Origin: Actinomyces sp. AC-20-1
GTDB taxonomy: Bacteria; Actinomycetota; Actinomycetes; Actinomycetales; Actinomycetaceae
DNA length: 64,000 nt
Reading direction: 5' to 3'
Assembly (NCBI RefSeq): GCF_023369555.1
Contig: NZ_JACJVC010000005.1
Location: 1 to 64,000 of the forward strand
Shown here: positions 6,555 to 43,977 of the stretch, piece after piece
Numbering within the stretch: the first letter of the stretch is position 1
How the letters are laid out: every line of letters starts with the position of its first letter
Made by a program: the position numbers and the translations under genes
The notes under the pieces: generated by a model
The model's database searches: none
What the model was told of the DNA's origin: nothing
Seen by the model: the letters and a program-made list of their open reading frames with translations, nothing else

Positions 6555-7511
6555 ATGCCCGCACCCACCAGCACACGGCCGCGGACGGCCGCAGCCCGGG
6601 CCCGCCAGTCCCGGCGGCGCTCCCTGCCCTACCTGCTCTACCTCGTCCCCGGCGCCCTGGCCTTCACGGTCATCATCCTCTACCCGCTGGCGATGAACAT
6701 CTGGTACTCCCTGCACAAGTGGAAGGGAGGCATGGCCCCGATGCGCTTCATCGGGCTGGGCAACTACGCCGAGCTGCTGGCCGATGAGAGGTTCTGGTCC
6801 TCCTTCCAGAACTCGATGTTCATGATCGTCGCGATGGTCCTCATCCCGACCCTCATCGGGCTGCTGCTCGCCTCGGTCCTCTTCGACTACGTCGGCAAGC
6901 ACTTCAGCTCCGGGGTGGCGACGACCCTGCGGGCCATGTACTACCTGCCGCAGATCCTCCCCGTCGCCGTGGCCGGCATCGTGTGGAACTGGATCCTCAA
7001 CTCCCAGACCGGGGCCCTCAACAGCATCCTGCGGGGCCTGGGCGTGGACACGCCACCGAACTGGCTGGGCTCGACCTCGCTCGCGCTGCCCTCGGTCATG
7101 CTCGTGCTCATCTGGATCCAGATCGGCTACCCGACCGTCATCTTCATGTCTGCCCTCCAGCGGGTGGACCCCGAGCTCTACGAGGCCGCCGAGCTCGACG
7201 GCGCCGGCTGGTTCGCCCGCTTCCGGGCCATCACGATCCCCCAGATCAAGCCGGAGACCTTCGTCATCGTGCTCACCTGCACCATCGCGGCCCTCAAGGT
7301 CTTCGCCCCGGTCTACGTCCTCACCCGGGGCGGGCCCGAGTCCTCCACCCTCGTGCCCAGCTACTACTCGTACCTCAACTTCTTCGACAAGTCGAAGGTC
7401 GGCTACGGGGCCGCGGTCTCCACCGTCCTCACGCTCGTCATCATCGTCGTCGCCGGCGTCATCCAGATCCTGCAGAACCGCAGCGCCCGCCGTGAGGAGG
7501 AAGGACGCTGA
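6555..7511 (+). CDS. Sugar ABC transporter permease (MalF/UgpA type)
   Basis: A 318-residue inner-membrane permease with an Arg-rich cytoplasmic N terminus and six predicted membrane helices. The EAA loop (EAAELDGAGWFARFRAITIP, starting near residue 210) contacts the ATPase. It pairs with the next gene to form the channel. No ATP-binding subunit is encoded here; in actinobacteria a shared MsiK-type ATPase encoded elsewhere usually energises such importers. The ribosome-binding site is weak (GAAGAAGACG). Confidence 0.9.
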   Translation: MPAPTSTRPRTAAARARQSRRRSLPYLLYLVPGALAFTVIILYPLAMNIWYSLHKWKGGMAPMRFIGLGNYAELLADERFWSSFQNSMFMIVAMVLIPTLIGLLLASVLFDYVGKHFSSGVATTLRAMYYLPQILPVAVAGIVWNWILNSQTGALNSILRGLGVDTPPNWLGSTSLALPSVMLVLIWIQIGYPTVIFMSALQRVDPELYEAAELDGAGWFARFRAITIPQIKPETFVIVLTCTIAALKVFAPVYVLTRGGPESSTLVPSYYSYLNFFDKSKVGYGAAVSTVLTLVIIVVAGVIQILQNRSARREEEGR

Positions 7512-37055: not shown

Positions 37056-37754
37056 ATGACCCGGATCCTGCTCGTCGAGGACGAGGAGAGCTACCGCGAG
37101 CCCCTGGCCTTCAGCCTGCGCCGTGACGGTTTCGACGTCGTGGAGGCCGAGGACGGTGTGGCCGCCATCGAGGCCTTCGAGGCCGCGGGCCCCGCCGTCG
37201 CCATCGACCTCGTGCTGCTCGACCTCATGCTCCCGCGCCTGAGCGGCACGGAGGTCTGCCGCCGGATCCGGCGCGTGTCCTCGGTGCCGGTCATCATGCT
37301 CACCGCGAAGGACTCCGAGGTGGACACCGTCGTCGGCCTGGAGATCGGCGCGGACGACTACGTGACCAAGCCCTACTCCTACCGCGAGCTCATCGCCCGC
37401 GTGCACGCCGTCCTGCGCCGCAGCCGCGAGGAGGAGCCGGCGGACCTGGTGCTGGAGGCCGGGCGCGTGCGCATGGACGTCGAGCGCCACGAGGTGAGCG
37501 TGGCGGGCGAGCCGGTGGCGATGCCGCTGCGCGAGTTCGAGCTGCTCGAGCTGTTCCTGCGCAACCCGGACCGGGTGCTCACCCGCGGGCAGATCATCGA
37601 CCGGGTGTGGGGTGCGGACTACGTGGGGGACACCAAGACCCTCGACGTCCACGTCAAGCGCATCCGGGCGAAGATCGAGCCCGACCCCGGGGCGCCGCGC
37701 ATGCTCATGACGGTGCGCGGCCTGGGCTACAAGCTCGTCGCCCACCCCCGCTGA
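37056..37754 (+). CDS. regX3: Phosphate response regulator RegX3
   Basis: A 232-residue OmpR-family regulator: receiver domain (ILLVEDEESYREPL; phospho-acceptor Asp in VLLDLMLPRLSG; TKPYSYRELIARV) and winged-helix domain (LTRGQIIDRVWG, RGLGYKLVAHPR). ATG 37056 follows GAAGGAAG. Codons 206-226 (37671-37733) recur as an 89%-identical copy at 39454-39516. Confidence 0.94.
   Translation: MTRILLVEDEESYREPLAFSLRRDGFDVVEAEDGVAAIEAFEAAGPAVAIDLVLLDLMLPRLSGTEVCRRIRRVSSVPVIMLTAKDSEVDTVVGLEIGADDYVTKPYSYRELIARVHAVLRRSREEEPADLVLEAGRVRMDVERHEVSVAGEPVAMPLREFELLELFLRNPDRVLTRGQIIDRVWGADYVGDTKTLDVHVKRIRAKIEPDPGAPRMLMTVRGLGYKLVAHPR
37671..37733 (+). repeat. Direct repeat in regX3 3' end, copy 1
   Basis: This 63-bp segment of regX3 matches 39454-39516 at 56 of 63 positions, in the same orientation, 1.78 kb away. 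Confidence 0.85.
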
Positions 37755-37776
37755 GGCCTGAGCTCTCACGTCGGCC

Positions 37777-37797
37777 CCTGACCTCTCCGGTCAGGGC
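37777..37797 (+). terminator. regX3 terminator
   Basis: CCCTGACC and GGTCAGGG pair around TCTCC, 22 nt after the regX3 stop codon. There is no T-run. Confidence 0.55.
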
Positions 37798-37814
37798 TCA
37801 GCGTGTGGGGCCGG

Positions 37815-38648
37815 TCACGGGCGAGTGGCTCTGTACCAGCGGCGGGTGTACCGGATCGCTGTACCGGCGCAGAGGGCCGTCAGCGCCGCGTACACGAGGA
37901 CTGTCCACGCGAACCAGTCGCCGGTGCTGACCGCGCGCGTGAGGCTGAGGCCTACCCAGGTCGCGGACAATAGGCAGTACAGGATCGTCAAGCGGCGAGG
38001 AACTGTGCGCAGGTCTGTCGGCAGTGCTTGGACGTAGCCTTCTGGTGGCCCGAGCTCCCGCGCAACTCCGAGCCCGGTGTCGTGGGCGTGTGAGGCAGCC
38101 TCCCGCAGCACCGCCTCGATCCGGTCCTCGGTCAGATCTCCACATCGCCGCAGTGCGGAGCGTGCGCGATCACGCCAGGCGTCGTCGTCCAGCGTCGCGC
38201 TCTTCAGGATCGACTCGGCGGTCAACACGGGCGGATGAGCATGGTGTGGACGCCACGACCGTGCTACCGCCCACGCGGCGACGCCGTACACCGGCACGAG
38301 GACCAGGGACCAGAACCCGCTGACACGTGGGCCAACCTGCCCGAGCGGCACGATCAGTCCCGCGATCGCCACGCTTCCGACGACGACCGTCAGCCCAGAG
38401 ACAGCTACGGTGAATCCGAACGAGTACCGTGCGTTCGCGCGCTTGTAGACCGTGATGAGGGCCATGATCATCGCGCCCACCAGCAGTGGCATGAGAGCCA
38501 TCCCCACAGTGAGATCGGTGACACGGTCCGCGAACGGCAGGAGCGAGAGCAGTTGGCTGCCGAACAGGAGCAGACTGACACCTGCCGCGACCCCGGGCGC
38601 CGACACGACGCTCTCCCGCGCATCGAGCATCAGCGCATCGTCGAACAC
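37815..38648 (-). CDS. HAAS-type multi-pass membrane protein, probably 5'-disrupted
   Basis: From GTG 38648 this gives 277 residues with about six membrane helices (four before residue 130, two at the C terminus) and no enzymatic motif. The same frame continues upstream without a start codon for 50 more codons (ALVDAVATVRDAQVDPGEAYG...), which looks like the HAAS helical domain that links PadR-controlled membrane proteins to their regulator. A further HAAS-like segment (VDWAESACVRLVMDEV) lies one frame over, near 38790-38850. One extra C near 38785 would explain the break. It is downstream of the PadR gene on the same strand. Base composition is less GC-rich than in the flanking core genes. 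Confidence 0.6.
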   Translation of the reverse strand: MFDDALMLDARESVVSAPGVAAGVSLLLFGSQLLSLLPFADRVTDLTVGMALMPLLVGAMIMALITVYKRANARYSFGFTVAVSGLTVVVGSVAIAGLIVPLGQVGPRVSGFWSLVLVPVYGVAAWAVARSWRPHHAHPPVLTAESILKSATLDDDAWRDRARSALRRCGDLTEDRIEAVLREAASHAHDTGLGVARELGPPEGYVQALPTDLRTVPRRLTILYCLLSATWVGLSLTRAVSTGDWFAWTVLVYAALTALCAGTAIRYTRRWYRATRP

Positions 38649-38929
38649 GTCCGGCCCCGCCTCGCGGAGCTCGGTGAGCCGTTCACGAGCCCACTGCTGC
38701 GGCGCTCCATATGCTTCCCCGGGATCAACCTGCGCGTCACGGACCGTGGCGACTGCGTCGACGAGCGCCTGCTCGACGACATCGACGCACCTCGTCCATC
38801 ACCAGCCGGACGCATGCCGATTCCGCCCAGTCCACGTCGGACTCGCGGCCGCGCGCCTAGAAGAACACCTCGTGCACCCGAGCCAGTTCTGGCCCCGCAG
38901 GACGATCCTTCCTCGAAGCATCCACACTC

Positions 38930-39358
38930 TCAACGGATATCGCTTCCCCCTTCCTGTGTGGTGCCGTGCGCGACGACCGTGCTGATCTGAGTGGCGTCGC
39001 TGTGCCGGTGAGCAGATGTGCCCAGGCGATTCGTGAACATCGCAAGCAATGCCCGTTCCCGTTCGAGCCGCTGCCGCCCGTGAGTGGTCAGTGTGTACTC
39101 ACGACGCGCCGGCCCTGATGGTCCCGGCACCCACACGGCGTTGAGCGCACCGTCCTCCTCCAACCGGGCCAGCGCTGGATAGAGCGACCCTCCCTTCGGC
39201 ACACCGAGTCCCAGCGCTCCCAGCGCCTGAGCGATCGCGTATCCGTGCAGCGGGCGACCATCCACGCACGCCAGCACCGCGGTCGGCAACAGTGCCCGCA
39301 CCCACGTCCCCGGAAGCACAGGGGCGTGATCAGCGCGACTCGACTCATCTACATCCAC
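38930..39358 (-). CDS. PadR-family transcriptional regulator
   Basis: A 142-residue winged-helix regulator. LPTAVLACVDGRPLHGYAIAQ, GGSLYPALARLEEDGAL and REYTLTTHGRQRLERE are the three conserved PadR segments. PadR proteins usually repress their own operon and respond to stress or drugs. GTG 39358 is the likely start. The dyad TAAGT-ATAGA-ACTTA directly upstream overlaps its -10 element and is the probable operator. The broken membrane protein gene follows it. Confidence 0.88.
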   Translation of the reverse strand: MDVDESSRADHAPVLPGTWVRALLPTAVLACVDGRPLHGYAIAQALGALGLGVPKGGSLYPALARLEEDGALNAVWVPGPSGPARREYTLTTHGRQRLERERALLAMFTNRLGTSAHRHSDATQISTVVAHGTTQEGGSDIR

Positions 39359-39366
39359 TATGAATC

Positions 39367-39381
39367 TAAGTATAGAACTTA
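39367..39381 (-). promoter_or_regulatory. PadR promoter/operator: dyad over TATACT
   Basis: On the minus strand TATACT (39375-39370) is a near-ideal -10 element. The inverted repeat TAAGT-N5-ACTTA (39367-39381) covers it, giving a simple autorepression layout. No clear -35 was found. Confidence 0.5.
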
Positions 39382-39453
39382 TCTAGAAAGGGGTGCGACT
39401 GAGTCGCCATGAGCGTGTTCGCTCACTGCTACTTGCGGTAGTGGGGCAGCCCG

Positions 39454-39516
39454 AAGATCGAGCCTGACCCCGGGGTGTCGCGCATGCTCAAGATGGTGTG
39501 CGGCCCGGGCTACAAG
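39454..39516 (+). pseudogene. Remnant of a regX3-like response regulator 3' end (direct repeat copy 2)
   Basis: Translated, it reads KIEPDPGVSRMLKMVCGPGY versus KIEPDPGAPRMLMTVRGLGY in RegX3. Seven of 63 bases differ. Similarity ends abruptly on both sides. It is either a relic of a duplicated response regulator or the trace of an insertion that duplicated the regX3 end. Its antisense strand supplies the last nine codons of the mauE-like gene. Confidence 0.75.
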
Positions 39517-40111
39517 CGCAGGGCTCAGCAGATGGTTGTTGTGAGGACGCGGGTGGCAGGGGCTGCGGCGCTGCGTGGGCGATGGGCTGAGGCTGGCTAC
39601 CGCGGTACTGGAACCAGCGCTGGAGCACTAGGAGGGCCACCACGACCGCGAGCCCGAGGTAGACCGAGCTGACCGGCCCGGCAAGGACGAGGCGCTGGGG
39701 CACGACGACGAGCCCGTCGACTGCGAGCAGGGCGGCAAGGACGACGTTGCGAATGACGACTGCAGGGCCGACACGTCGACGGGCGATGCTGCCCCAGCAT
39801 CCGCAGTCCGTGGCGATCCCCCGCGCCAGGACGCTGGCGGCCGCAGCCGTCAGCAGAACGAAGAGTACCGAGGTGAGGACGGAGATCAGGGGTGCGAACA
39901 TGCCCAGGATCAGGCACATGCTCAGCGTCATCTCGACGACGGGCAGAGCGAAGGCCGTGGCCTCCGCCGTCCTGGCGCCGAGGATCCGGTAGCCGAGGAT
40001 GTCGCTCACGCCTTGGCGGTAGTCCTGGCGCAACTTGCCGGTGGCGCTGACGAAGAGGAGCAGCCCCGCCAGGAGACGGGCGCCGGCGAGGATGAGTGCG
40101 AGAGTGTCCAT
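39488..40111 (-). CDS. MauE/DoxX-family redox-associated membrane protein
   Basis: A 207-residue membrane protein with four helices of the MauE type: GARLLAGLLLFVSATGKLRQ at the N terminus and the conserved cysteine pair in TDCGCWGSIARR between helices 3 and 4. MauE is needed for disulfide-rich methylamine dehydrogenase maturation, and relatives couple quinone or thioredoxin redox to extracytoplasmic disulfides. GAGGAAGTG precedes ATG 40111. It is 37 nt downstream of the cysteine-rich precursor, so disulfide formation in that product is the obvious hypothesis. The C-terminal Pro/Gln/Ser-rich tail ends in sequence read antisense to the regX3 remnant, so the tail was probably created by a rearrangement. 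Confidence 0.82.
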   Translation of the reverse strand: MDTLALILAGARLLAGLLLFVSATGKLRQDYRQGVSDILGYRILGARTAEATAFALPVVEMTLSMCLILGMFAPLISVLTSVLFVLLTAAAASVLARGIATDCGCWGSIARRRVGPAVVIRNVVLAALLAVDGLVVVPQRLVLAGPVSSVYLGLAVVVALLVLQRWFQYRGSQPQPIAHAAPQPLPPASSQQPSAEPCACSPGRTPS

Positions 40112-40148
40112 AGGATCTCACTTCCTCGTGATGATCTGGGTGTCGAGC

Positions 40149-40805
40149 TCAGACGTAGTTGACGCAGATGACGCCGGTCTTCTCGCAGTGGGCGGCGAGG
40201 CAAATAGGGCACCAAGTGAGCCCGCAGAGGATGGCTGTCGGCCCGGCCCATATGCAGGCGGCGCAACACGTGAGGAAGTCCTTGCTTACCTTCACGCAGG
40301 TACCTTTCGGGATGGTGCCAATCGGACACGGTGAGCTAGTCGTGGAGGTGTAAGAATCGGTGCTGAAGTGGGTGGCGTCTCCGGGCACCTCGCTGGTGGC
40401 CTCGGCTGCGACGAGCTCTAGGTATTGCCCGTCTGCGCTGTCCTCCCACCGAAGCAGACGAGTGTCCAGTTTCTGTGCTCCATCGGCGGAGAACAGATCT
40501 ACTGCGAGGGCATAGTGCCCGCTGTCATCTTGTGCGGCGGTACGTCTCACGATCCGTCCGTCAGGAAGTTGTCCCGTAGCGGACATGAAGACGGAGACAG
40601 GCATACCGACGATGTTGCTCGCCTCGTCGAGGGTCAACTCGTGTGTGGTGTCCCTCATGCTGTCGGCTGGTACTGGCGCGTCCCACCAGTTTGGTGATGT
40701 CGGACCGGGTGAACCCGTCAATGCTCGCGCTTCGGGTACCAGGGCGAACAGCGCTCCTGCCATCGATGTCCAGATTCCAGTGAGTAGTGCTTGACGGCGC
40801 TTCAT
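40149..40805 (-). CDS. Secreted precursor with ten-cysteine C-terminal peptide (bacteriocin-like)
   Basis: A 218-residue protein. ATG 40805 has AGGAGG at 6 nt. The N terminus is a signal peptide with a twin-arginine-like start (MKRRQALLTG) and an AxA-type site (EARA, about residue 28). A cysteine-free acidic middle (about 29-159) follows. The last 59 residues hold ten cysteines, at 160, 170, 180, 181, 184, 194, 199, 202, 207 and 214, with hydrophobic spacers (CCAACIWAGPTAILCGLTWC). The layout resembles halocin C8-like or fulvocin C-related precursors in which the C-terminal cysteine-rich peptide is released; this is a similarity in architecture, not proven homology. The MauE-like gene downstream fits disulfide folding. 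No dedicated exporter or immunity gene is visible. Confidence 0.65.
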   Translation of the reverse strand: MKRRQALLTGIWTSMAGALFALVPEARALTGSPGPTSPNWWDAPVPADSMRDTTHELTLDEASNIVGMPVSVFMSATGQLPDGRIVRRTAAQDDSGHYALAVDLFSADGAQKLDTRLLRWEDSADGQYLELVAAEATSEVPGDATHFSTDSYTSTTSSPCPIGTIPKGTCVKVSKDFLTCCAACIWAGPTAILCGLTWCPICLAAHCEKTGVICVNYV

Positions 40806-40886
40806 GGTTCCTCCTCGAGGACAACAACATGGTGTGACGCGCCTCACGAGTGTAGCGGTTGGTTGAGAGGGCAACAAGGGCTCGAC

Positions 40887-40911
40887 GAGACTCATCAGGA
40901 ATGCCCGCGAA
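40887..40911 (+). repeat. Left terminal inverted repeat of outer IS
   Basis: CTCAT-N7-GCCCGCGAA (40891-40911) mirrors TTCGCGGGC...ATGAG at 43742-43763. A second GCCCGCGAA copy lies just inside, at 40932-40940, and a matching internal GCGGGCAC occurs near the right end, so both ends carry a doubled motif. GGGCTCG at 40878-40884 and 43772-43778 is a candidate target duplication. Confidence 0.6.
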
Positions 40912-40920
40912 GGGGGCTCG

Positions 40921-41925
40921 GTGCCTCACGTAGAGCTGCCCGCGAAGTCCGTGGACCGTGGTGGGCATGGGAAGTGGGTTGTCGGTGCAGGTCAGGGCCG
41001 AGATCACAGCAGGTACGCAGGGGCGTACGCGAAGGCCTCAAAGAAGGACAAGGGGCGGATCCTTGACGAGGTCTGCGTGGTCACGGGCTGGAGCCGGGAC
41101 AACGCGCGCCGGCGCCTGGTGGCCGCGGCCAGGCGCACACCCGGTCACAGGAAACCGGAGCCCAGGGCTAGGGCCCGCAGGTACTCATACGACGCCTTGA
41201 AGGTACTTCAGCTGGTGTGGGCCGCCATCGGCGGACAGTGCGGCAAGTACCTCAAGGAGTCCATGCCGATGCTGCCAGGCCCGCTGGAGGTGAGTGGTGA
41301 GCTCGACGACGAGCCGTGCTACAGCCCGGCTGTCAGAAGCGAGCCGGGTGGCTATGAGCGCGCCCGGCCATCGACCGCTACCTCGCCCCGGCACGGTCCA
41401 CCGACCAGCTGCGGGGCAGGTCGACGACCAAGGCTGGCCCACTGCCGCGCAGCTCCATCAAGGTCCGCAAGGCCGGCGACGAGGCCGAGCCCGGGTTCTT
41501 CGAGGCCTGTCGCCGTCGCCCACTGCGGGCCGACCCTCAAGGGAGAGTTCGCCCGGGGGCGTGAACATGACCGATGTTCTCACAGGGTGGACCTTCACCC
41601 GCTCGATCCGCAACAACGCCGACAAGCACATCATCTCCGCCCTGGACGCTGCTGTGGGCTGCCTGCCGTTACCCGTCCTGGGCATGGACTTCGTAGGCGG
41701 CTCGGAGCTCATCAACCACGGGGTGGTCAAGTGGGCGGCGGACCTGGACATCTACTCCCGCCCGTTCGCGCCCCTACCCGAAGAACGACCAGGCCACCAT
41801 CGAGCCTGTGGAACAACCACCTGGTGCGCCGCTACGCCTTCTACTACCGCTATGACACCAGCGAGGAGCGCGAGGTCCTGGGCCGCCTTTGGGAGCAGGT
41901 CAACGTCAAGCTCAACTTCCTGCCC
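40921..41925 (+). pseudogene. Outer IS transposase, 5' part, frameshifted
   Basis: The frame from GTG 40921 reads YAKASKKDKGRILDEVCVVTGW and then ALKVLQLVWAAIGGQCGKYL, typical of the N-terminal helix-turn-helix region of IS1202/ISNCY integrases. After about 41300 the reading shifts frame at least twice. Catalytic-core-like segments recur in other frames (TDVLTGWTFTRSIRNNADKH; GMDFVGGSELINHGVVKWA, with a DDE-type aspartate; HLVRRYAFYYRYD). It cannot yield a full transposase. Confidence 0.75.
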
Positions 41926-42162
41926 GTTACCTTGTTGGTGGTCCTGGGTGGTCCGGGGCTGGGCCAGCTGCTGCGGGCATGTTGTCTTGCCCCTGTCTAC
42001 TCAATGATCCGGGGGGGGGTTGTCACCCGCGGCAGCCGGGCGCTGGGGAGCGCTGATAAGGGGAACGCCCCGCTGTGTGTGAGGTCTAACGCACACGTGG
42101 GTGCGGGGCCAGTCGTCCACCGGCTGGCCCCGCATCGACTTGACCGAGAGGCGGCACAAGGG
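41926..42162 (+). ncRNA. Candidate bridge-RNA region of the IS110 element
   Basis: Noncoding 5' region of the IS110-type element. In this family the left end encodes a structured bridge RNA that selects donor and target. GC-rich complementary segments are present (for example GGGGCCAG and CTGGCCCC at 42105-42132). The call is by position and family knowledge only; no covariance evidence was available. Confidence 0.35.
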
Positions 42163-43374
42163 ATGGATATCGAGGACATCGAGGTCTTCATCGGCACCGG
42201 GCGTCGGCAAGAGCGAGCACTGGGCCACGGCCTTGGGCCGGGACGGGCGCAAGGTCCTCGACAGGGCGCTGCCCAATGACGAGGGCCGGCTGCGTGAGGT
42301 CTACCAGCGCCTGCAGGCCAAGGGGCAGGTGCTGGTTGTGGTCGACCAGCCCGCCACCATCGGGGCCCTGGCGGTGGCGGTGGTCCAGGACATGGGCGTC
42401 ACCGTGGGCTACCTGCCCGGACTGTCCATGAGACGCATCGCCGACCTGACGCCGGGCAGCGCCAAGACCGACGCCAAGGACGCGGCCGTCATCGCCCAGG
42501 CCGCCAGGACCATGCCTCACACCCTCAGCGCCATCAGCGCCTCGGACGAGGACGCGGCCGCCTTGTCGATGCTGACCGGTTTCGACCTGGACCTGGCCCG
42601 CCAGGTCAACCAGACCGCCAACCGGATCCGGGGACTGTACACCCAGATCCACCTATCTTTGGAGGCCGTGTTGGGGCCCTGGCTGGAGCACGACGCCGTC
42701 CTGGAGGTCATCGCCGCCTGGCCCACCCCAGTCGACCTGAAGAGAGCGGGCAAGGCAAGGATTGACGCCAGGCTCAAGAAACACGGGTGCAGGCGCCACG
42801 CCACCTGGGCCGCCAGATCATCTCGGCCCTGGAGCGCCAGCGCGTCACCGTCGCCGGCACCGACGCCGCCGCAGTGGTGCTGCCCCACCTGGCCAGGCAG
42901 CTCATCGCCCTGCACACCCAGCGCGCCGACATCGCCGCCCAGGTCGAGACCCTGGTGCAGGCCCACCCTCTTTACCAGGTCCTGACCTCCATGCCCGGGA
43001 CCGGGGTCCCGGCCGCTGCCGTCTTCCTGGCCGAGACCCTGGGCAAGACCTTCACCACCGGAGCCCACCTGGCCTCCTACGCCGGCCTGGCACCAGTGAC
43101 CAGCAGATCGGGCTCATCGATCCGCGGTGAGCACGTCTCCTACGCCGGCAACAAGCGCCTCAAGCGCGCCATGTTCCTGTCCGCCTTCGCCTCACTGCGC
43201 TGCGACCCCGTCTCACGGGCCTGCTACCAGCGCAAACGAGACCAAGGCAAACGCCACAACCAGGCCGTCCTCGCCCTGGCGCACCGCCGCATCCTGACCC
43301 TGCACGCCATGATCAAAAACGGCACCCTCTACGACCCCCCCCAACCAGCACGCGAGCTACCCGCAGCCACTTGA
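42163..43374 (+). pseudogene. IS110-family transposase with two frameshifts
   Basis: Starts MDIEDIEVFIG (ATG 42163), then an extra G near 42203 shifts the frame to GKSEHWATALGRDGRKVLD. The RuvC-like DEDD domain continues (VVVDQPATIGALAVAV, DAKDAAVIAQAART) to KKHG near 42785. A second shift there leads to the Tnp_20 domain (LTSMPGTGVPAAAVFLAE, SYAGLAPVTSRSGSSIRGE with the conserved serine region), ending at 43374. All domains are recognisable, so inactivation is recent. Confidence 0.8.
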
Positions 43375-43391
43375 CACACCACATAGGGGCA

Positions 43392-43694
43392 CCCCCCCGT
43401 AAGCCCGTCGGGTGGGGCACTGACAAGGCCGGCAGGCTGGGGTGCCTCTACGACGCTCCCCGCACCCCGCCAGGCCGGCTGCTGGACACCGACGCCTTGA
43501 CCAAGACCCAGAAGACGGACCTGATCACCTACCGCTACCAGCTCAACCCCGTCGCCATCACCCGTCGCATCATCGAGCTCCAGGACGTCCTCATCCGCCT
43601 GGCCGAGGACAAGACCGACCAACTCTACCTCGCCCAGACCCCCAGCATCCTGCCCGACGTCCACAAAGGCATCCGCATCAAGAAAGCCTCCTGA
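43392..43694 (+). pseudogene. Outer IS transposase, 3' part
   Basis: Continues the interrupted frame: RKPVGWGTDKAG...LTKTQKTDLITYRYQLNP...RIIELQDVLIRLAED to the stop at 43694. It has no start of its own and is separated from its N-terminal half by the IS110 element. Confidence 0.75.
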
Positions 43695-43741
43695 GCACAA
43701 CCGGACTACGCGGGCACTCCTACATAAGGCACCGAAGATAT

Positions 43742-43765
43742 TTCGCGGGCACATTGACATGAGAC
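43742..43765 (+). repeat. Right terminal inverted repeat of outer IS
   Basis: TTCGCGGGCACATTGACATGAGAC is the inverted counterpart of 40887-40911. A partial second copy of the motif (CGCGGGCACTCCTACAT) lies about 30 bp inside. Confidence 0.6.
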
Positions 43766-43936
43766 ACCCCGGGGCTCGGTGGCACCGGTGAAGATGCTCG
43801 TGAGGCGGACTCGGTGCCTGACGTCGGGGGCCCTTGAGGGCTCGGCGTTTCCGTGTGTGGGTCGTGGGCTGGCTGGCGTGCGCGCGACGGTCTGGCCTGT
43901 GAGGTAGGTCCTCCCGACTTTTCCGCAGGATCCTGC

Positions 43937-43942
43937 TAAAAT
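43937..43942 (+). promoter_or_regulatory. carD promoter -10 element TAAAAT
   Basis: TAAAAT with CCGACT 17 bp upstream (43914-43919) forms a sigma-A-type promoter 35 bp before carD. It lies beyond the right end of the IS, so the insertion did not separate it from the gene. Confidence 0.55.
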
Positions 43943-43977
43943 GAGATCTCTCAACACTGACTGGAGTGACGTCACCC

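Follow-up and report, generated by a model that had tools for sequence, protein, structure and literature searches.

A patchily distributed family of cysteine-rich, putatively exported precursors and their MauE-type partners in Actinomyces

Introduction

What is made by a gene pair in which one gene encodes a putatively exported protein with all of its cysteines in a short C-terminal tail, and the other a membrane protein of the MauE type? This question is raised by a locus of Actinomyces sp. AC-20-1, whose genome assembly comprises 2.70 Mb in 47 contigs. The 64,000 nucleotides of this genome that were analysed are referred to here as the window. An original prediction, made from the letters of the window, had placed a two-gene unit at positions 39488..40805 with 37 nt between the genes; these coordinates are right, and the unit lies on the minus strand, which had not been named. 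The prediction further proposed that the tail is released as a disulfide-rich, perhaps bacteriocin-like peptide and that the MauE-like protein supplies the oxidizing step. This proposal is reasonable and partly supported by the analyses described below, which also bring several other explanations into view.

The precursor and its modelled domains

The precursor gene (40149..40805, minus strand) starts with ATG, has a GAGGAGG sequence just upstream and encodes 218 amino acids. Its translation agrees with the predicted division into a signal, a cysteine-free middle and a tail of 59 residues containing ten cysteines. The putative export signal (residues 1-29; 40719..40805), called by eye, begins with MKRR and ends with PEARA-L. 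It is followed by the middle part (residues 30-138; 40392..40718), a linker that varies in length and sequence within the family (residues 139-158; 40332..40391) and the tail (residues 160-218; 40152..40328), all on the minus strand. Residues 1-159 contain no cysteine, and the ten cysteines of residues 160-218 are spaced as C-x9-C-x9-CC-x2-C-x9-C-x4-C-x2-C-x4-C-x6-C-x4. The calculated mass of the tail in reduced form is 6,161 Da. In 47 mechanically called open reading frames (ORFs) of the window, cysteine accounts for 131 of 18,496 residues; at this frequency, at least ten cysteines in 59 residues would be expected with a probability of about 1e-11, and the maximum in the last 60 residues of any of the 47 ORFs is four. 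A chance cluster was rejected.

Structure prediction of the window precursor with AlphaFold, using the six family sequences, gave a mean pLDDT of 68.3 and a pTM of 0.66, with the five models of the job ranging from 45.2 to 68.3. The middle is modelled as one helix (residues 59-66) and a five-stranded sheet, with block means of 85-93 for residues 51-130, and the tail as a strand, short helices and a further strand with block means of 58-84. Residues 1-37 and 138-158 have pLDDT values below 50. In the model of the A. oris precursor, which is less confident (mean pLDDT 55.6), the elements follow one another in the same order; this agreement is not independent, because the same six sequences were used as input. 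Neither Foldseek nor VIA-align returned a reliable relative. In the model, the middle and the tail are separate domains, and the low-confidence linker before the tail fits a peptide that could be released.

Distribution of the precursor family

Single-sequence searches with the window precursor gave no match outside its own genome, and no convincing match was obtained in plasmid, phage and viral searches. The entry point to the family was provided by MauE: a search within the genus returned 17 MauE places, spread over 14 of the 49 genomes, and at the A. gerencseriae MauE locus a clear precursor homologue is located alongside. A two-row profile searched against the 49 genus genomes (E 0.1 or better) matched 12 of them, six with the gene, one with a remnant (G165) and five weakly (E 0.02-0.09). 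On reading, two of the weak matches (G307 and G330) correspond to no such gene; the other three (G298, G302 and G319) are limited to regions that precede the tail and were left uncounted. A pattern-and-tblastn scan across the contigs of 84,980 species yielded 37 matches, 32 of which were dismissed by tblastn as not being relatives, while the remaining five were confirmed and are the same as those found with the profile. These homologues belong to A. gerencseriae DSM 6844, A. oris S64C, A. bowdenii DSM 15435, A. israelii DSM 43320 and A. massiliensis 4401292.

The profile search of 396 genomes of the order found no convincing member outside Actinomyces. Eight of these genomes matched, six of them too weakly to be counted as members; matches in G096, G110 and G279 fall within other long ORFs or antisense to them, and weak matches in G047, G249 and G175 were left uncounted. 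With a tail-only profile, 296 genomes of the phylum returned the window's own gene and two weak matches with an internal stop. Among 297 genomes, five of the six that matched (E 0.002-0.009) were likewise considered too weak. No match to any of the six members was found in NCBIfam, PHROGs and PADLOC, and none was convincing in Pfam, where the best E value (0.0036) linked one member to an unrelated PIN-domain model. A literature search, which missed most subscription papers, found no published account of this Actinomyces family. Within the genomes searched, the family is patchy and confined to Actinomyces, where it occurs in 6 of 49 genomes.

Two loci of this set show irregular forms. The A. 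gerencseriae precursor (L047 8742-9368) has a frame disrupted at the N-terminus and opens at a TTG codon past the expected twin arginine; either translation begins at this TTG, or the N-terminal part of the gene has been damaged or misread. The remnant in G165 (L080 4615-4671) consists of 19 residues of a ten-cysteine tail and is apparently located beside a gyrB/parE-type gene, as judged by eye; perhaps it marks a decaying site. A gyrB/parE-type site carries the gene pair in A. gerencseriae and MauE alone in G319.

Conservation of the tail

Conservation of the cysteine pattern among homologues had been set in advance as a test of the original prediction. All ten cysteines are invariant in the six aligned members, together with P166, G188, W198 and H206 of the tail, and W40 and a few further columns are invariant as well. 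Four members have twelve cysteines, the two extra ones standing beside the first and second positions and always being gained together, and the tails range from 56 to 62 residues. In each of the 15 pairwise comparisons, the tails are more alike than the middle parts, whose identity is 15-44% outside the closest pair. Comparison of the A. israelii and A. massiliensis genes gave a dN of 0.035, a dS of 0.218 and a dN/dS of 0.16 for the whole gene; the values are 0.044 (dN) and 0.179 (dS) for the middle, and 0.021, 0.277 and 0.075 (dN/dS) for the tail. Thus, the precursor is under purifying selection in this one species pair.

The invariant H206 and two C-x2-C spacings would be compatible with a tail that binds zinc or an iron-sulfur center, in which case MauE might guard its thiols from wrong oxidation. 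We regard such a metal-binding domain as very improbable, since the predicted export signal places the tail outside the cell, where thiols oxidize, the CC doublets and the twelve-cysteine variants would suit disulfides better, and no metal-site family was matched in Pfam. A cytoplasmic metal-binding tail is made unlikely by the export signal only.

In a second alternative, the tail would be a stable domain rich in disulfides, belonging to an exported two-domain protein without antimicrobial function (a surface protein, redox protein, adhesin or inhibitor), and MauE would maintain the state of its cysteines. The tail is strongly conserved rather than diverse, and it contains the invariant W198-C199-x2-C202, which we take to recall a thioredoxin-type motif. 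Moreover, the net charges of the six tails (+2, 0, 0, -2, -5 and -5) are not cationic, and an immunity gene and an exporter were not recognized among the ORFs surrounding the pair. Against these points stand the low-confidence linker that separates the domains, the patchy presence in the genus and the lower-GC, IS-flanked location described below, both of which suit a gene for competition, and the density of ten to twelve cysteines in about 60 residues, which would suit a stand-alone stabilized peptide. Taken together, a non-antimicrobial domain is a serious but somewhat unlikely explanation.

Pairing of the precursor with MauE

The second gene of the unit (39488..40111, minus strand) encodes a MauE/DoxX-type membrane protein of 207 amino acids, in which the DCGCWG pair noticed originally places a CxC motif at residues 103-105. 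Its assignment holds, as PF07291 is matched with 69.9 bits at a cut-off of 27; the MauE proteins paired with the other precursors also exceed this cut-off, with 71.5 bits in A. gerencseriae and 74.4-78.8 bits in the other four. All six carry the CxC motif after the third helix (DCGCW, DCGCY or DCGCG).

The neighborhood survey confirmed that the pairing recurs: MauE adjoins the precursor in all six cases, on the same strand and at a distance of 21-104 nt. The gap is 37 nt in the window, 21 nt in A. gerencseriae, 43 nt in A. oris, 40 nt in A. israelii and 42 nt in A. massiliensis, and is 92 or 104 nt in A. bowdenii, depending on the start chosen. MauE is located downstream of the precursor in both ten-cysteine members and upstream in the four twelve-cysteine members, and these two gene orders suggest either that the pairing survived a rearrangement or that it arose on two occasions. 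The MauE proteins divide as the precursors do, with identities of 56% between the partners of the ten-cysteine members, 41-84% among those of the twelve-cysteine members and 19-26% across the groups.

The CxC motif is intact in all six paired MauE proteins and in 4 of the 11 unpaired ones among the 17 places in the genus. The unpaired proteins that keep it are two in G319, one in G304 (contig 4) and one in G308 (contig 37); the seven others read CGYFG (G326, G321, G332, G305, G318 and G322) or DGGYG (G300). If the 17 proteins were independent, a calculation that ignores shared ancestry, the probability of all six paired motifs being intact would be 0.017. Because they are not independent, the correlation is suggestive only, and with only six members it rests on few independent events. 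The DGGYG protein is an informative case: it is closest to A. bowdenii MauE (48%) and, by eye, has the same kinds of neighboring genes, but tblastn found no precursor at this locus. A clade of MauE paralogues in six Actinomyces genomes (L048-L053) has lost the second cysteine throughout (CGYFG) and lacks a cysteine-rich partner; the neighbors of these genes resemble, by eye, pyruvate phosphate dikinase or a MoxR-type ATPase.

Other MauE partners and the general oxidation machinery

Two further loci show CxC-bearing MauE proteins beside different exported proteins. In G319 (L055 8083-8460), a partner of 125 amino acids and zero cysteines overlaps the MauE gene by 4 nt; it resembles the precursor only weakly (23% when an alignment was forced; hhalign probability 3%). 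On A. israelii contig 37 (L054 7387-7626), an exported protein of 79 amino acids with two cysteines directly precedes MauE and shares the leader region of the precursor (hhalign probability 89%, E 2e-6). A further CxC-bearing MauE of G319 (L046) has no precursor alongside. Because intact MauE proteins sit by cysteine-free or two-cysteine partners, MauE proteins of this group may work for more than one kind of exported partner, and the 79- and 125-residue proteins are possibly other cargoes of the same system.

These partners bear on a further reading, in which the disulfides of the tail are made by the general MdbA/VKOR system and MauE serves the leader, the middle module or another substrate. 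Both the cysteine-free partner and the two-cysteine partner that shares the leader would agree with it, as would the presence of VKOR in all six precursor-bearing genomes; VKOR alone could be enough for the disulfides of the tail. In A. oris, MdbA is described as the major oxidoreductase for pilus proteins in the accessible text of PMC5478893. The division of the CxC motif, kept in every paired MauE and lost in 7 of 11 unpaired ones, points the other way, and we consider it unlikely that MauE has no part in oxidation of the tail. MauE itself probably oxidizes cysteines.

Export and membrane topology

A twin arginine is found within the first six residues of all five precursors with an intact N-terminus, and TatC is present in all six precursor-bearing genomes. 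Twin arginines occur in Sec signals too; the signal appears Tat-like by this feature, and the precursor may use the Tat pathway.

The orientation of MauE was considered by comparing the paired proteins with 27 other actinobacterial MauE proteins from 29 loci, with hydrophobic segments called by a plain hydropathy window. The original description as a four-helix protein fits the window MauE, which shows four segments, but not its five paired counterparts, each of which shows five. In the paired proteins, the net charge is +1 to +4 for loop 1, 0 to +3 for the CxC loop and +2 to +7 for the C-terminus. Five of the six have a neutral or negative N-terminus; that of A. bowdenii, whose start is uncertain, carries +7. 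In the comparison set, in which several starts were surely placed too early, the N-terminus is positive in 21 of 27 and the CxC stretch ranges from -9 to +1; 11 of these proteins show just three segments, so that the stretch extends to the C-terminus. When only the 16 comparison proteins with four segments are considered, the CxC loop carries -3 to +1, a range that overlaps with that of the paired six. The paired proteins are thus set apart by five segments in five of six and by a charge pattern unlike that of the 27 others. By the positive-inside rule, their CxC motif may face the cytosol, opposite to that of the others. An inverted MauE of this kind would oxidize the tail in the cytosol, and the folded, bridged peptide would then leave via Tat. 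We regard this variant as doubtful and quite improbable, and the +7 N-terminus of A. bowdenii speaks against it. If it were true, a peptide exported by Tat would have its own oxidative-folding step in the cytosol.

Genomic setting

The pair is embedded in an island of 6.2 kb (37755..43965) between regX3, which ends at 37754, and carD, which starts at 43966. In most other loci these two genes adjoin: CarD was found in 49 of 49 genus genomes, and 30 loci were returned. Leaving aside that of the window, RegX3 directly precedes CarD in 25 of 29, and in the other four no RegX3 match was present in the fetched stretch. The CarD of G320 is 100% identical to that of the window, and there only 127 nt separate the RegX3 and CarD matches. 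As originally noted, the GC content is lowered, being 0.665 in the island and 0.645 in the pair, compared with 0.722 in the whole window. The IS elements reported nearby correspond to an IS110-family transposase in two pieces (42101..43374, plus strand; PF01548 and PF02371).

A PadR-type regulator (38930..39358, minus strand; PF03551, 66.8 bits) follows 129 nt past the MauE stop and is itself followed by a gene for a membrane protein of 277 amino acids (37815-38648, minus strand). A link of the regulator to the pair is uncertain, and none of the other loci fetched contains a relative of it at E 1e-5. In L055, a PadR gene (6824-7402) is also positioned after MauE on the same strand, and the two PadR proteins are unlike at E 1e-5. 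The remaining island ORFs include two without any Pfam family. A Pfam scan of eight ORFs of the island recognized no family of transporters, proteases or immunity proteins, consistent with what the original prediction had reported for exporter, protease and immunity genes, and found neither methylamine dehydrogenase (MADH), MauD nor other mau genes.

An IS110-type gene neighbors three of the six pairs, on differing sides (window 42101-43374; L047 6934-8096; L075 8729-9958), at a distance of at most 0.2 kb in A. gerencseriae and A. oris and of 1.3 kb in the window; none was found in the stretches fetched around the other three pairs. A segment of 66 nt from the regX3 3'-end (37669-37734) recurs with 89% identity at 39452-39517. 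This second copy overlaps the MauE ORF, encoded on the other strand, at its 3' end, and the PadR and 277-residue membrane protein genes sit between the two copies. The layout looks as if a single insertion event had used the regX3 end.

Comparison with known systems

In layout, the nearest known system is halocin C8, which contains ten cysteines in its mature form. Its precursor ProC8 (283 amino acids) is exported via Tat and yields a 76-residue C-terminal peptide together with HalI, which is the immunity peptide, as given in the accessible text of PMC11509114. A similar layout is predicted here from sequence and model, with export of the precursor and an N-terminal part set apart from a short cysteine-rich C-terminus. 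The Actinomyces precursor differs in being bacterial rather than haloarchaeal, in its pairing with MauE and in lacking a match to TIGR04449. This model matched none of the six members at E values up to 10, nor the tail alone, nor anything in the genome of the window, while the control Haloferax volcanii was positive. The precursor is therefore not a member of the halocin C8 domain family, and descent from halocin C8-like proteins, which the original prediction had named as a target for a profile search, is not supported. By analogy, the precursor may still work like halocin C8, including an N-terminal domain that protects the producer; as with HalI, the precursor's own N-terminal part is a candidate for the immunity function that the original prediction left unexplained.

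A precedent for the pairing is found in Streptomyces, where decRiPPter, according to the accessible text of PMC7794033, returned three candidate RiPP families that contain mauE and, as described there, no other mau genes; the precursor of every one of them has at least eight cysteines. The Actinomyces pair likewise places mauE beside a precursor with at least eight cysteines. According to the same text, the Streptomyces candidates had been filtered for the presence of genes for transporters, peptidases and regulators; compared by description only, the Actinomyces unit differs from them by its two-domain precursor of 218 residues and by having no recognized transporter or peptidase. MauE beside a cysteine-rich precursor has thus already been proposed in Streptomyces, and the Actinomyces family is a new form of that idea.

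Actifensin shares with the present family the genus Actinomyces and the type of a secreted, disulfide-rich bacteriocin, which is putative here. It is a mature peptide of 37 amino acids with six cysteines and a 32-residue leader, encoded at a locus with ABC transporters and a subtilisin-like protease (PMC6989792, accessible text). None of these locus genes was recognized here, and membership was rejected because the tails have ten or twelve cysteines in 56-62 residues. The MauE of methylamine dehydrogenase is likewise a PF07291 membrane protein with a CxC motif, and the island differs from MADH operons in the lack of the other mau genes among the ORFs scanned.

Conclusions

The explanation that we favor tentatively, with a probability of roughly 0.45, is that the unit makes a cysteine-rich, bacteriocin-like C-terminal peptide and that MauE supplies the oxidation for its disulfides. 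According to this scheme, the precursor would be exported via its N-terminal signal, and the middle would act as a separate β-sheet pro-domain, perhaps with an additional role in protecting the producer. It would be connected by a floppy linker to a C-terminal mini-domain of 56-62 residues, in which ten cysteines, or twelve in four relatives, would form five or six disulfides. MauE would act as a dedicated membrane thiol oxidant, directly or via an MdbA-type oxidoreductase, and the tail would most likely be released by a host protease. This explanation draws on the invariant cysteines, the diverging middle, the joint gain of two cysteines, the low dN/dS in one species pair, the pairing in six of six cases, the parallel division of MauE and precursors, the division of the CxC motif, the linker and the Streptomyces precedent. 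Counting against it are the lack of a recognized exporter, maturation protease or immunity gene and the tails, which are not cationic. Further points against it are the intact CxC motif in 4 of 11 unpaired MauE proteins, two of them beside partners with zero or two cysteines, the presence of VKOR, and the charge pattern that may place the CxC motif in the cytosol.

The family lies outside Pfam and NCBIfam recognition and probably comprises disulfide-rich Actinomyces peptides, each with its own candidate oxidant. Several of these Actinomyces species are human oral or abscess bacteria. If the favored explanation is true, the family would provide a testable case in which a cysteine-rich peptide is retained or lost jointly with an enzyme devoted to forming its disulfides, and MauE would gain a defined substrate outside methylamine metabolism. 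The ten- and twelve-cysteine tails would then represent two natural versions of a small stabilized scaffold.
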